The notes below the pieces were generated by a model, which saw only the letters and a list, made by a program, of their open reading frames with translations, was not told where the DNA came from and made no database searches. A program made the translations under genes and the position numbers. 32,864 bases of DNA, taken from the NCBI GenBank assembly GCA_905235975.1, contig CAJONT010000048.1, positions 1 through 32,864 of the forward strand, written 5' to 3'. Each line of letters begins with the position of its first letter. Position 1 is the stretch's first letter. Positions 11,601 through 18,430 of the stretch are shown here, one piece after another. The stretch comes from an uncultured Prevotella sp. Lineage in GTDB: Bacteria > Bacteroidota > Bacteroidia > Bacteroidales > Bacteroidaceae.

Positions 11601-14391
11601 TGAGTCCCTGACCACCACCAATGTGGAACAGCTCTTCAAGAAGATGGACCAATACCGAGCCATACAGGAGAAGGTGGACCAAATGCACGACGAACTGGAG
11701 AGAGTGTTCGGACCGCTTGCCGCCAAGGACAAGGAATGCTGGAACGACATGCAGCAGTGTATGGACAACGCCCCTGAAGTGCTCCGCCATTTGGAGCAGA
11801 ACCAAACGCCGCTGGCCGGTCTGGCCCTGCTCACCAAAGACCACATTATGGAATGTAATCTGAGCACGGCGCGACGCCTCAACCAACTGGACGCTGCCCT
11901 TGATCCTACCGCTGCCATAGCCGCTGACCTCCTGTTGGAGGAACTGGAACAGCATTTGGACCGATGGACCAACAACCTGCACACCGCGCGCGACTGGGCT
12001 CAGTGGATTCGAAGGAAAGCCAGTCTACGGGAGGCACACCTCACACCGCTGATACACTACATCGAGGAGGGACACTCCAGCGCACAGGCTGCCGACGCCA
12101 TGTTGCGCTCCACATATAAGGCGATGGCCATGGCTGTGATAGAAGCCGACGAAGAGCTGCTCTTCTTCGATGGACAAATCTTTGAGGAGACAATTGAGAC
12201 ATACCGCAGTTTGTCGCGCAGGTTCCAAGAACTCACCAAGAAAGCCCTCTATTGCCAACTGGCCTCGCGCATCCCCTCTGTCACCATTGAGGCAGCTAAC
12301 AGTTCGGAGATGGGCATTCTCAAGAGGCACATTGCCTCAAAGGGCCGCAATGCCTCCATACGCAACATATTGGACCAGATACCTTCTCTGCTGCCCAAGC
12401 TGTGCCCTTGCATGCTGATGAGCCCCATCTCCGTTGCACAGTTTGTGGATCTTGATCAGGAAAAGTTCGACCTCGTGGTGTTCGACGAGGCCTCGCAGAT
12501 GCCCACCAGCGAAGCCGTGGGTGCCATTGCACGCGGCAAGGCCGTCATCGTGGTGGGCGACCCGAAGCAGATGCCGCCCACCAGTTTCTTCGCCACTAAC
12601 CAGGTGGACGAGAGCGATGCCGAGAACGACGACATGGAAAGCATTCTGGACGACTGCATCACGCTGTCGCTGCCCGACCACTATCTCACATGGCACTATC
12701 GTAGCCGACACGAGAGTCTCATCGCCTTCAGCAACACACAATACTACGACGGCAAGCTATACACCTTCCCCTCGGTCGACGACCGCTTGTCGAAGGTGCG
12801 TTTCATCCCCGTTAATGGCACCTACGACATGGGCAAGACACGCAGCAACCGCGCCGAGGCACGTGCCATCGTCGATGAGACCCTGCGCAGACTGAGCGAA
12901 GACCCCGACGGCCGCAGCATAGGCATCGTGGCTTTTAGCAAGGCACAGCAAGACCTGATAGAAGACCTGCTGGTGGAAGAACTGAGTAAACAACCGCAAC
13001 TGGAACGTGCCGCCTACGACTGCGCTGAACCCATCTTCGTGAAGAACCTGGAGAACGTGCAGGGCGACGAGCGCGACATCATCCTCTTCTCGGTGGGATA
13101 CGGTCCCGACCGCAACGGGAAGGTTTCGATGAACTTCGGGCCGCTGAACAACAGCGGCGGCGAGCGCCGACTGAATGTGGCGGTGAGCCGTGCACGCTAC
13201 GAGATGATGGTGTTCTCTACCATGCAGCCCGAACAGATTGACCTGAACAGGAGCCGCGCCAAAGGTGTGGAAGGACTGAAACGCTTCCTCGAGTTCGCCA
13301 AGAACGGACGTATGTCGGTGGCCTCGGAACAGTTTGTGCAGCAGCACGACACCTCGCTTATGGACGATGTGGCACGCATGCTGGCCGAACACGGCTATAA
13401 GACCGACAGGCAGGTGGGCAGATCGCGCTTCAAGATAGACCTGGCAGTAATTGACCCCGACAACGAGGGAGAATACCTGATGGGACTGCTCTGCGACGGC
13501 ACCGGCTACTACAGCACGAGCACCGAACGCGACCGCGAAATCTGTCAGCCGGGCGTACTTGCCGGACTGGGCTGGAACCTGATGAGGATATGGAGCGTAG
13601 ACTGGCTGCTGAACAAACGGCGCATAAGCGAGAAACTGCTGGCACAGTTGGAACAGGCTGCTAAAGAGAAACGGCAACGGGCACAAGCTGCTTCCGCCGC
13701 CGAGAAAGAAAATGCTGTTCAGCCGGGCGGACAAACGTCAGCCTCACACCCTAACCCGCTGATGGCGCACCTGGCCGACGTCCCCTTCGACGTGACAAAA
13801 GACGAGATTCTTGTACTGCCCGAAAAGACGGAGACCAAGGATTATGAGCCCTACCACCTTACAAACTGTCCGCAATTGCAAAAGATAGAGCAACTGGCAG
13901 GAGCGCCCAAACGCACCTCACAGCATGTGACGAACGTGATAAAAGGCGAACAGCCTGTGACGCTGAATGTGCTTTGCGCCAGGATAAAGGAAGGCTACGG
14001 ACTCAACATACGCAAGATGACAGACCTGCAGAAACTGGTGAAGCAAGTGGCCGATTCCGTGGGCTACCGCGACCCGGCATCGGAGGCAGACAACCCCACC
14101 TACTGGTCGACCAAACTCGATGCAGAACACTTTGAAGGTTGGCGTACCGGCAACAAACGCGACATGGCCGACATCCCTATGGTGGAAATACTCAATCTTG
14201 TGGCCATGGTCGTGGAACAACAAATCTCTACCCCGGAAGAGGACCTTGTGCGGCAGGTGCCGCGCCTGTTGGGCTACGCACGGCGTACGGCGAAAAGCGA
14301 TGCTCTGGCCACAGGTGCCATCGACCAATTGTGCCGAATGGGGAAAGTGGAGCGCGTGGACGGCAACGTGAAGTGGAAAGCCGCTAACTGA
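8608..14391 (+). CDS. DUF4011-helicase-Vsr-DUF3320 protein (Hhe-like antiphage)
   Basis: A 1927-residue single-chain protein. Domains in order: N-terminal beta-rich region (1-110); transglutaminase-like fold with C220 (GTCADLS), H246 (GHMFVG) and D264 as a plausible triad; DUF4011 from about 372 ([18 protein letters not shown]); SF1 helicase with Walker A GPPGTGKS (681-688), a long helical insertion (about 760-1230), Walker B FDEAS (D1293-E1294), [24 protein letters not shown] and motif [10 protein letters not shown] (from 1523); Vsr/MTES_1575-like nuclease with D1611 in [12 protein letters not shown]-terminal DUF3320 (about 1855-1915). The DUF4011-helicase-Vsr-DUF3320 fusion has been reported as an antiphage system named Hhe. 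Its base composition by eye resembles the adjacent genes, so recent transfer is not evident. Its last 8 bases overlap the convergent copper ATPase gene. The antiphage role is inferred from architecture. Confidence 0.88.
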
Positions 14392-16288
14392 AGAACTTGA
14401 GACGTAGGCTGTTGAGCACCACGCTCACACTGGAGAAAGCCATGAGGGCACTCGCCCACATGGGCGTAATCTGGAACGATACCCCCGCTATTCGCAGCAC
14501 ACCGGCGGCGAGAGGGATACATGCCAAGTTGTAGACAAAAGCCCAGAACAGGTTTTGGCGCACCATGCGCACCGTCTGTCGCGACAATCTTATCAAATCG
14601 GCCACACGGCGCAGGTCGGAACCCATAAGTGTAACTTGTGCCACATCCATGGCCACATCAGTGCCCTTGCCCATCGCGATACTTACGTCGGCTGCGGCAA
14701 GGGCTTGTGTGTCGTTTATGCCGTCGCCCATCATGGCCACTGTCTTGCCCTCTGCCTGCAGTTGCCGCACCAGGTCTTCTTTGTCCTGTGGGAGTACTCC
14801 GCTGCGATAATGGGTGATGCCCACCTTGTCGGCCCAGTAGGCTACAGCCTCCTCCTTGTCACCGCTCATCAGATAAACCGTGACACCCTCGCGCGTCAAT
14901 GCCTGCATGGCTTCAGCGGCATAGGGCTTGAGCGATTCTCGCTCCTCGGGTTCCAATTGTGCCGCCTTGCGGAAGTCGACATCGTCGCGGGGTATGGTGA
15001 GGGTGCCCGTTTTGTCGATGACGAGGGCATTCACCTTGCGCACTTGTTCCAAAGCTGTGGCATCGCGCACGAGCACTTGCTTCTGCGCCGCCTTGCCCAC
15101 GGCCACCATGAGTGCGGTGGGTGTGGCGAGCCCCATGGCACAGGGACAAGCAATCACCAGCACCGATACCGCCGAGAGCAGAGCCTCTGGCAGTTTGTCG
15201 AATCCGCCTATGAGGAGCCATGCGAGCAGTGTGACGGCGGCTATGCCCACCACCGTAGGCACAAAAACGAGTGCCACCTTGTCGACCACGCGTTGCACGG
15301 GAGCCTTCGAGCCCTGTGCCTGTTGCACCATGCGTATAATCTGTGCCAGCATCGTCTGTGCGCCCACCTGCCGTGCTTTCATGCGCAGGCACCCACTGCT
15401 GACGATGGTACCTGCCAAGATGCGGTCGGCGGGCTTTTTTCTCACAGGCAGGGGTTCTCCGGTAATCATCGACTCATCCACATACGCCTCTTCTTCGGTG
15501 AATACATCGCCGTCGACTGGTATCTTTTCCCCTTGTCGCACTTCTATGGTATCGCCGCGCTCCAAGGTAGCCACCGGCACCTCGCTTAGTGTGTTGCCCA
15601 TGACCAGACGTGCTGTTTTGGGTGCCATGCCCATGAGTTGTCTTATGGCAGAGGCCGTACTGTTCTTGGCACGCTCCTCGAGCCAGCGGCCAGTGAGAAC
15701 GAAGGTGACAATCATGACGGAGGCATCGAAATAAGTGTGCCAGGCGATACCGCGTGCGCCCCACACGGCATCGCCCGCAAAGGTGTTGAATGTGCTGAAG
15801 AGAAACGACACCGCCGTGCTCAGCGCCACGAGGGTGTCCATATTGGCAGAGCCGTGCTTCAACTGCCGGCATGCCGTGACATAGAACTCCCTGCCGCAGT
15901 ACCACAGGTTGGCAGCAGCAATGATTAGGAGAATCTGGTTGGTGAAAGCACGTCCGCCCACTACTATCCATCCCATGGAGAGTGCCATGGTGAACAGGGC
16001 AAAGACCCATGAAAGCAACACCCGCCGGCTAAGCAACTGCATGCGTCGGTGCTCTATCTGCGTCACGCTCACCTCGGTATCGGTAATCAGTTCATACCCG
16101 GCGTCGGCCAATTGTGTGCGCATGGCTTCCAGTGACACCTGTTTCTCGTCGTATGTGAGGGTGACGGTGCGTCCGGCCAGATTGGCAGCCGCACTGTCCA
16201 CGCCCGGCATGGCCGACAACGTGCGTTCCACCTTGGCAGAGCAGGCGGCACACATCATCCCCACAATGGGGAGCGTCTTTTGTTGCAT
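14384..16288 (-). CDS. copA: Copper P1B-type ATPase with minimal N-domain
   Basis: A 634-residue inner-membrane pump if started at 16288; the ORF track starts 22 codons earlier at a TTG inside the upstream gene. In order: one HMA metal-binding domain with GMMCAAC (10-16); four membrane segments; actuator loop with TGEP (276-279); CPC (381-383); phosphorylation site DKTGT (D425); SGD (475-477); GDGIND (521-526); YN (586-587) and MAFSS (616-620) in the last two segments. CPC, YN and MxxSS indicate Cu(I) export (P1B-1). The odd point is that only 52 residues separate the phosphorylated Asp from the SGD Asp; canonical CopA has well over 100, including the ATP-binding N-domain and its SEHP motif, which are not found here. 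It is a clean single frame, not a visible frameshift. Last gene of the minus-strand run. Confidence 0.85.
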
Positions 16289-16331: not shown

Positions 16332-17441
16332 TCAGGCGTGTTCCAGTTCATCAATCAGTATCTGCACGATACGCTCGGCCGAACGGCCGTCCCAGCGGTC
16401 GGGCAACGAATACTTCTTCCATTTTCCTGCCACCATGTCGGTCAGCGTCTCGCGCAGGCGGCCGGGGTCCTCGCCCACGAGCACGTTGGTGCCGTGACGT
16501 ACCGTCTCTATGTGCTCGGTGTAGCTGTTGAGCGTGATGCAGGGTACACCGTTGAAAGTGGCCTCCTCGGCCACGTTGCCCGAGTCGGTGATGATGCCCT
16601 TGGCATGAGCGGTGAGATAACCGAACTGTAGGTAGCTAAGTGGATCGATGAGGTGGAAGCGGCTCACGTCGTCATTGAGAGTGGTGAGCAGGCGTTGTAC
16701 GGTGCTCCTTGCCGCTCCGCGAAGGGGTGCCGCTATGGGGCATCCCTTCGCGGTCTCGACAATCGCCTTTAGCATATTGCGCAGGTTGACCGTATCGGCC
16801 ACGAGCGCCTTCCTGTTGAGTGTGAACACAATGTAGTGGCCTTCTTCAAGATGCAGAGCATCCATCACATCGGGTCGTTGCAGTCTGTTGCGGTTGAATC
16901 GCAGCGAGTCCATGAGAATGTTTCCCACCATATAGGTCTGCGAGAGGCTCACGCCCTCTCTCGACACGATGTTGTTGGCACCCTCTCCCGCGGTGAAGAG
17001 GAAGTCGGAGAGTCCGTCGATGACGAGGCGGTTGATCTCCTTCGGCATGCGGATGTCGAAGGAACGTGTGCCCGCCACGAGGTGTGCCAGATACTTGCCT
17101 TGTTTCTTCGTCACGATGGCAGCCGCCATGGTAGAGGCCAAGTCGTCGACCACGATTACCACGTCGGTGTCATTGTGTTCAAGATATTTCTCAAACTCGC
17201 CCATCACCCTGCCGGTAAGTTCGTTGAGGCTTACACAGTCTACACCAAGATAGACATCCGGTGAAGCCATTTGCAAGTCGTTGAAGAGCGTGGGTTCGAG
17301 TGTGGGATCACCTGGCACACCGGCATAGACCAATGTGTAGTGCACGTCGTGTCCCTGCTGGTGGGCTTTTTCCACGGCTCTCACGATGGGAGCCACCTTG
17401 ACGAAGTTGGGCCTTGCACCGGCCACAATACAAATATTCAT
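16332..17441 (-). CDS. UDP-GlcNAc 2-epimerase homologue, catalytic residues altered
   Basis: A 369-residue GT-B fold protein of the WecB/MnaA family, which interconverts UDP-GlcNAc and UDP-ManNAc for surface glycans. Family landmarks are present: [12 protein letters not shown] (R10, K15), DDLAST (D100, matching HGDTxST), AGTRS, the INR before the C-terminal half (R138), [19 protein letters not shown] and [10 protein letters not shown]. By eye against E. coli WecB, three catalytic residues differ: the Glu of HVEAG is V122 (HLVAG), the first Glu of PEExNR is K134 (PKEINR), and the His of LHRxEN is N209 (LNRKAL). UDP-binding parts look better kept than the epimerisation chemistry. It may be a divergent enzyme or a nucleotide-sugar-binding pseudoenzyme. 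It lies 35 nt after the SPFH gene. Confidence 0.82.
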
Positions 17442-17476: not shown

Positions 17477-18430
17477 TTACTGTCCCTTGAAGAGGTCTTT
17501 GATGCCACCCAGGCTGCCCAGTACATTGGTGGCCTCATAGGGCAGATAAACGGTCTTGGTCTGATCGCCCTTGGCCAGTTCTTCCATCATCTGGATGTAT
17601 TTTTGTGCCAGGAGGTAGTTGGCAGGATTGGTGCAGTCGCCCACAGCCTCTGTGATTTTCTTGATGGCGACGGCCTCTGCCTCTGCCACGCGGATGCGTG
17701 CGGTGGCGAGACCCTCGGCTTCGAGGATGGCCTGCTGTTTCTGTGCCTCGGCGCGGTTGATCATGGCAGCCTTGTCGCCCTCCGACTGGAGAATCTGCGA
17801 CTGCTTGTCACCCTCGCTGGTGAGGATGGCGGCACGCTTGTTTCGTTCGGCCTGCATCTGTTTCTCCATGGCGTTGAGCACGCTTTGCGGCGGCGTGATG
17901 TCCTGCAGCTCCACGCGGTTCACCTTGATGCCCCACTTGTTGGTGGCATCATCGAGCACGGCACGCAATTTGGTGTTCACAGTGTCGCGCGAGGTGAGCG
18001 TCTGGTCAAGTTCCATCTCACCGATGATGTTACGCAGGGTGGTCTGTGTAAGTTTCTCTATGGCGTTGGGCAGGTTGTTTATTTCGTAGACAGCTTTGAA
18101 GGGGTCTACAATTTGGAAGTAGAGCAGTGCGTTGATACCCATCTGGATATTGTCTTTGGTAATCACGTTCTGCTTGTCGAAGTCGTAGACCTGCTCTCTG
18201 AGGTCGATTGCATCGGAATAGACATAGCGTCCCCTGTTGAGTGTGACGATCGACTTGGCCGCGTCGATGAAGGGGATGATGATGTTGATGCCCGGGCTTA
18301 GGGTGGCGTGGTAGCGTCCGAGGCGCTCGATAATCTTGGTTTCCGATTGCGGTATAATCACCAGCGTCTTTTTGGCGATGATGATGGCAAGTACGATAAG
18401 TACGATAAGTACAGTGGTTGTAACACTCAT
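17477..18430 (-). CDS. SPFH/band 7 membrane protein, stomatin/QmcA-like
   Basis: A 317-residue membrane protein. Residues 3-19 form one hydrophobic segment (TTTVLIVLIVLAIIIAK), after which the protein faces the periplasm or forms a membrane-bound cage. The SPFH domain follows (about 22-190), with IPQSETKIIERLGRYHATLSPGINIIIPFID and LREQVYDFDKQNVITKDN. A long alanine/glutamate/glutamine coiled coil (about 195-270, with NRAEAQKQQAILEAEG) then drives oligomer formation. A short C-terminal tail ends in IKDLFKGQ. Family members assemble into large membrane rings that organise lipid microdomains and work with proteases or with NfeD. The NfeD gene directly upstream supports this pairing. A function beyond membrane organisation cannot be stated. 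Confidence 0.92.
   Translation of the reverse strand: MSVTTTVLIVLIVLAIIIAKKTLVIIPQSETKIIERLGRYHATLSPGINIIIPFIDAAKSIVTLNRGRYVYSDAIDLREQVYDFDKQNVITKDNIQMGINALLYFQIVDPFKAVYEINNLPNAIEKLTQTTLRNIIGEMELDQTLTSRDTVNTKLRAVLDDATNKWGIKVNRVELQDITPPQSVLNAMEKQMQAERNKRAAILTSEGDKQSQILQSEGDKAAMINRAEAQKQQAILEAEGLATARIRVAEAEAVAIKKITEAVGDCTNPANYLLAQKYIQMMEELAKGDQTKTVYLPYEATNVLGSLGGIKDLFKGQ

Follow-up and report, generated by a model that had tools for sequence, protein, structure and literature searches.

The closest described systems for the gene analysed here are the non-hydrolysing 2-epimerases. Thermus structures in which both sites are occupied by ligands revealed 14 strictly conserved residues that contact ligands or act in catalysis (PMC10622841). 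The proton is abstracted by D95 in E. coli WecB (D98 in Thermus), E117 binds the C-4' hydroxyl of the sugar, and E131 and H213 are part of the lining of the allosteric UDP-GlcNAc pocket or of the bridge to it (PMC10622841). R313 forms a hydrogen bond with the C-3' hydroxyl in UDP-GlcNAc enzymes; this position sets the C-3' specificity and varies with the substrate (PMC10622841). The E. coli mutants E117Q and E131Q are nearly dead, with an activity too weak for kinetics, and H213N displays a 30-fold higher Km and an approximately 50-fold lower kcat (PMC10622841); residue roles were also taken from PMC8869731. In the open-access papers searched, we found no WecB homologue of Bacteroidota described as non-catalytic or rewired.

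The stretch of DNA analysed here, termed the window, comprises 32,864 nucleotides of an uncultured Prevotella sp. (contig CAJONT010000048.1) and carries an intact WecB-like open reading frame with an ATG start. Like E. coli WecB and B. anthracis MnaA (TIGR00236), its product and the homologues described below, together called the altered form, have the family fold, as predicted, and the equivalents of R10, K15, D95, R135, S290, E296 and E312, but they differ from these two enzymes by replacements of E117, E131 and H213, in the allosteric site and of R308/R313.

16332..17441, minus strand: non-canonical Epimerase_2 (WecB-like) gene, 369 aa (ORF, Pfam, alignment, tree, AF2/Foldseek)

Results

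The WecB-like protein matched PF02350 (Epimerase_2) with an E-value of 1.1e-63. Its score with the NCBIfam equivalog for wecB, TIGR00236, fell just below the cut-off (199.1 versus 210.15 bits), and that with TIGR03568, which represents the hydrolysing NeuC/NnaA enzymes, far below (55.4 versus 235.9 bits), the distant similarity to the latter being judged by profile score and not by residue set. An AlphaFold2 model built from 18 sequences left residues 124-133 unresolved, a region that was resolved with a 73-sequence alignment (pLDDT 95.2, pTM 0.91). The best Foldseek matches of this model were all non-hydrolysing 2-epimerases (TM 0.84-0.88), headed by the Thermus thermophilus UDP-GlcNAc3NAcA 2-epimerase (8SXY and related entries; TM up to 0.88, 29-31% identity), and E. 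coli 1F6D was matched with a TM of 0.78-0.83. The preserved fold proposed in the first-pass annotation is consistent with this prediction of the two-domain, GT-B-like fold of non-hydrolysing 2-epimerases. WbbZ, a pyruvyltransferase, has no more than its fold in common with 2-epimerases.

Residues were mapped in a joint alignment of E. coli WecB, whose reference sequence is identical to PDB 1F6D/1VGV in 376 of 376 residues, with 61 members of the altered family and 45 canonical Bacteroidales epimerases. Every correspondence read by eye in the first pass proved right: E117, E131 and H213 are replaced by V122, K134 and N209, and the counterparts of R10, K15, D95 and R135 are the identical residues R10, K15, D100 and R138. 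Further retained are S290, E296 and E312 (S287, E293 and E309 in the window protein), and further replacements affect G94, G292, R308 and R313 (D99, N289, N305 and H310). Q38 and H39 are lost, and H246 corresponds to an arginine, R241, in most members. An alignment slip concealing the true Glu and His residues can be excluded, as no gap interrupts the motifs and the flanking invariant anchors H120, A123-G124, R126, P133, E135, N137, R138, T207 and R210 keep the register firm. The motifs are located as follows, the first nucleotide of codon n being 17441 - 3(n - 1), as established by alignment:

17130..17147, minus strand: codons 99-104, DDLAST (canonical GDVTST), with the new D99 and the kept base D100 (E. 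coli D95)
17028..17084, minus strand: codons 120-138, with V122 for E117, K134 for E131 and R138 kept
16809..16823, minus strand: codons 207-211, TLNRK, with N209 for H213 and R210 kept
16563..16586, minus strand: codons 286-293, DSGNVAEE, with the UDP contacts S287 and E293 kept and N289 for G292
16506..16532, minus strand: codons 304-312, LNSYTEHIE, with N305 for R308, E309 kept and H310 for R313 (sugar C-3' contact)

The same switches were present in 131 distinct homologues with approximately 47-100% identity, so that the substitutions are fixed, or nearly so, in relatives. D99, D100, N209, S287, N289, E293, E309 and H310 are invariant (131/131), as is R10; K15 occurs in every sequence, K134 in 130 (with one arginine) and N305 in 128. 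Position 122 is always hydrophobic (V, A, I or L), and the H246 position is occupied by R in 117 and by H in 14 sequences. None of the 131 retains an equivalent of Q38 or E131, and the position of H39 is a histidine in two; the Q38 and H39 positions are now variable. E117, E131 and H213 were each found in 55 of 55 other family members. Nine columns, including those of E131, H213, G94, G292 and R308, carry one residue in at least 90% of the canonical Bacteroidales enzymes and another in at least 95% of the altered form, and 18 residues (D99, K134, N209, N289, N305 and H310 among them) are invariant in 61 members of the altered form and rare in the canonical ones. D99 and H310 are the sole acidic or histidine residues that became newly invariant in the altered clade. 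Since the replacements are shared by 131 homologues, errors in sequencing or assembly and a pseudogene in progressive decay are excluded as explanations.

Transferred to the Thermus numbering, R12, K17, D98, S284, E290 and E306 of the catalytic site are kept and E120 and R302 replaced; in the allosteric site, Q40, H41 and E132 are replaced, as is H240 in most members, and of the bridging residues H208 is replaced and R209 kept. Seven of the 14 residues listed for Thermus are thus exchanged, mainly in the allosteric pocket. The Thermus enzyme deviates at the R313 position, as does the altered form, but differs from it in having all 14 ligand-binding and catalytic residues (PMC10622841). The preserved nucleotide contacts noted in the first pass were confirmed by R10, S287 and E293 in 131 of 131 homologues, but its phrase "loss of the chemistry" lacks support in this wording, as the equivalent of the base D95 is kept throughout and it is the allosteric pocket and sugar recognition that are lost instead. 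Because this base is retained while the sugar contacts E117 and R313 and the allosteric residues are replaced, the altered form is, as far as its residues can tell, better described as having the activator site and sugar recognition replaced and the base and nucleotide site kept. The 369-aa protein is unlikely to be WecB and, given that residues defining WecB were looked for and are not present, appears from its sequence to be a variant within the WecB fold family.

The altered form is widespread in Prevotella: of 200 same-genus genomes, 168 had a match at E<=1e-10, in nearly every case a strong one (60-87% identity), and among the 85 genomes of good quality 78 had one. Named records belong to Prevotella and its segregates, including Hoylesella timonensis, H. 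saccharolytica, Segatella copri, S. paludivivens, Leyella stercorea and Xylanibacter brevis. At 1e-40, 15 of 30 sampled Bacteroidaceae genera had a match, two of them, judged by score, at canonical level only, which leaves approximately 13 genera with the altered form. Across approximately 390 Bacteroidales genomes the clade was found in Bacteroidaceae only; the best matches outside this family reached at most 429 bits, those read had canonical motifs, and no homologue with intermediate motifs was among those read. The nearest relatives beyond the clade are WecB-type enzymes of other Bacteroidales (e.g. loci L070 and L066), which form the nearest outgroup in the tree with approximately 40-42% identity. 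These share the ARPNFxKxxP and xDxxSTM motif regions with the altered form but, unlike it, are fully canonical in keeping E117, E131, H213, the HPR motif, Q38/H39, R308 and R313.

In a maximum-likelihood tree, the 28 sampled members grouped together in one clade (100/100), which is set off by a long stem of 0.83 changes per site. This clade is nested with canonical Bacteroidales epimerases (node 100/99), its exact sister being less certain (89/79). Members from one genus, labelled g3, fell at two places in the tree (L057/L058/L060 versus L059/L061/L065/L140), one of which lies beside the Prevotella clade with good support; this split suggests a transfer or an ancient paralogy.

The host genome, a metagenome-assembled genome of 79% completeness, does harbour the second, intact wecB for which a search had been proposed: an Epimerase_2 gene on another contig (C321, locus L001) with the equivalents of E117, E131 and H213 and thus the standard catalytic set. 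In at least 30 near-complete Prevotella genomes, however, the altered form is the sole Epimerase_2 protein, which excludes that it is an obligate partner of canonical WecB. No Epimerase_2 at all was present in four of 80 near-complete Prevotella genomes.

In the window, genes for a PH-domain protein, an M48 protein, NfeD, SPFH, the WecB-like protein and a copper ATPase lie on one strand with gaps of less than 60 bp; NfeD and SPFH are a known pair (PMC2636767).

18471..18920, minus strand: NfeD, the usual SPFH partner (Pfam)
17477..18430, minus strand: SPFH/Band_7 protein, upstream of the WecB-like gene with a 35-bp gap (Pfam)
14384..16288, minus strand: copper P-type ATPase, downstream, likely ATG at 16288, without the nucleotide-binding N-domain (Pfam, motif comparison)

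The operon with NfeD, SPFH and a copper pump, as reported in the first pass, is real in the window, but it fails as a general context and is confined to part of Prevotella. Within four genes upstream of the WecB-like gene, SPFH was found at 44 of 99 loci, NfeD at 39 and M48 at 20, with SPFH directly upstream on the same strand at 36; downstream, MATE (17/99) and CopA (16/99) recurred. Beyond part of Prevotella the SPFH linkage is absent and the neighbours differ between genera, including a RarA-type ATPase, a 2-hydroxyacid dehydrogenase and DUF5686. No constant gene partner was detected among the 99 loci and the loci of other genera, and a function cannot be read from the operon context, since SPFH/NfeD/M48, MATE, CopA and a dehydrogenase recur in subsets of Prevotella only. 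A functional role of the SPFH linkage is possible in Prevotella, but the family cannot be defined by it. Several canonical Bacteroidales sisters adjoin glycosyltransferase-like genes, and the altered form lies scattered among unrelated neighbours, so that it appears to have left the polysaccharide context.

A short-chain dehydrogenase of approximately 250-300 aa was encoded directly downstream on the same strand at 15 of 99 loci (L162, L164, L167, L173, L177, L179-L181, L186 and others), and it is a possible functional partner in those Prevotella. The copper P1B ATPase of the window has the HMA domain and the CPC, TGEP, DKTGT and GDGIND motifs, but there is no counterpart to residues ~440-533 of A. 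fulgidus CopA (3j09), the region of the missing N-domain. In all 21 Prevotella-lineage copies, among them isolates of Hoylesella timonensis and Segatella paludivivens, 91-112 aa separate DKTGT from GDGxND and the HP motif is absent, compared to 185-200 aa with the HP motif in 23 of 23 homologues from other Bacteroidales genomes. Further loci with an ATPase lacking the N-domain include:

L112, 6694-8616: copper ATPase without N-domain
L142, 14273-16192: copper ATPase without N-domain
L148, 4399-6324: copper ATPase without N-domain
L150, 4543-6462: copper ATPase without N-domain

Discussion

Our analysis points to a protein of the WecB/MnaA fold family that has a single origin and became neofunctionalised, whose ligand is altered at the sugar and which most likely performs a different UDP-sugar step; from the sequence data we assign this reading a probability of about 0.55. 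It would derive from a canonical non-hydrolysing UDP-GlcNAc 2-epimerase, its one emergence dating back to the ancestor of Bacteroidaceae or further. The predicted fold, the UDP-binding residues R10, S287 and E293, K15 and the catalytic base D100 are kept by sequence. The allosteric UDP-GlcNAc site (Q38, H39, E131, H246 and the bridging H213) and the C-4' and C-3' sugar contacts E117 and R313 are exchanged for residues that are mostly invariant in the clade. A UDP-linked ligand would then still be bound in the cleft, differing from UDP-GlcNAc at the sugar, and the former activator pocket would be free for another molecule, be it an acceptor, an effector or a partner. The step itself may be an elimination without re-addition, a hydrolysis or a transfer, catalysed by D100 and possibly assisted by D99, K134 and H310; interconversion of UDP-GlcNAc and UDP-ManNAc would not be expected. 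D99 and H310 are the candidates if the lost groups migrated, because no other acidic or histidine residue became newly invariant. More specifically, but only as a tentative proposal to which we give slightly less than even odds, the altered form may represent an undescribed Bacteroidaceae enzyme family on a 2-epimerase scaffold, with a new UDP-sugar reaction and the former allosteric pocket serving as a second-substrate or effector site.

The first-pass annotation had expected a pseudoenzyme or an enzyme with a new reaction. The loss of key residues stands, and the invariant replacements and the kept base speak for a function that has changed rather than for an enzyme that is simply dead. A true pseudoenzyme, i.e. 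a regulator or sensor without catalysis that closes around UDP or a UDP-sugar and passes a signal on to a partner protein, is an unlikely but serious alternative. It would account for the replacement of E117, E131 and H213, whose E. coli mutants lose most of their activity (PMC10622841), and for the kept UDP contacts, which can also persist in a non-catalytic sensor; in Prevotella, its partner would perhaps be the SPFH/NfeD membrane complex, given SPFH directly upstream at 36 of 99 loci, although this linkage does not extend beyond part of the genus. Judged by the conserved catalytic motif residues, however, E117, E131 and H213 are missing but the equivalents of the base D95, K15 and E312 (D100, K15 and E309) are present without exception. 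Invariant polar residues are not what one would expect a drifting pseudo-pocket to arrive at, and the replacements thus look constrained. As invariant polar residues were maintained over such divergence together with the base, we consider an enzyme with a change more probable than an inert scaffold: judged by its residues, a neofunctionalised UDP-sugar protein with changed substrate or reaction is more likely, and the intact altered form probably handles a UDP-sugar in some other way. Nor is it simply the partner of an active epimerase, since it is so often the sole Epimerase_2 protein.

We consider it rather improbable that the altered form is still an active UDP-sugar 2-epimerase that dispenses with allosteric activation and uses another substrate, with D99, K134 and H310 as substitute residues. 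Such an enzyme would have a precedent in the Thermus UDP-GlcNAc3NAcA epimerase with its different substrate, the activator is not needed by some family members (PMC11464976), and the kept D100 and E309 as well as a specificity-setting R313 position that varies among known enzymes would agree with it. Against this, E117, Q38, H39, E131, H213 and R308 do not vary among the characterised epimerases that were compared in PMC10622841, Thermus included, the corresponding E. coli substitutions E117Q, E131Q and H213N are severely impaired (PMC10622841), and a glycan-gene context is absent. That a dispensable wecB copy simply drifted or decayed, with which the few genomes devoid of any Epimerase_2 would agree, is refuted by the conservation data, as specific new residues are fixed in 131 sequences and the frames are open in most listed genomes.

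Most Prevotella carry the altered form, often as the sole family member, and Pfam-based pipelines are likely to annotate it as a UDP-GlcNAc 2-epimerase. Such an annotation would credit gut, rumen and oral bacteria with a UDP-ManNAc synthesis that is possibly absent. With the altered form, nature also provides a clean example of an allosteric enzyme that is devoid of its activator site with base and nucleotide site kept, and since closely related canonical sisters are available for comparison, what has replaced the lost function is directly testable.
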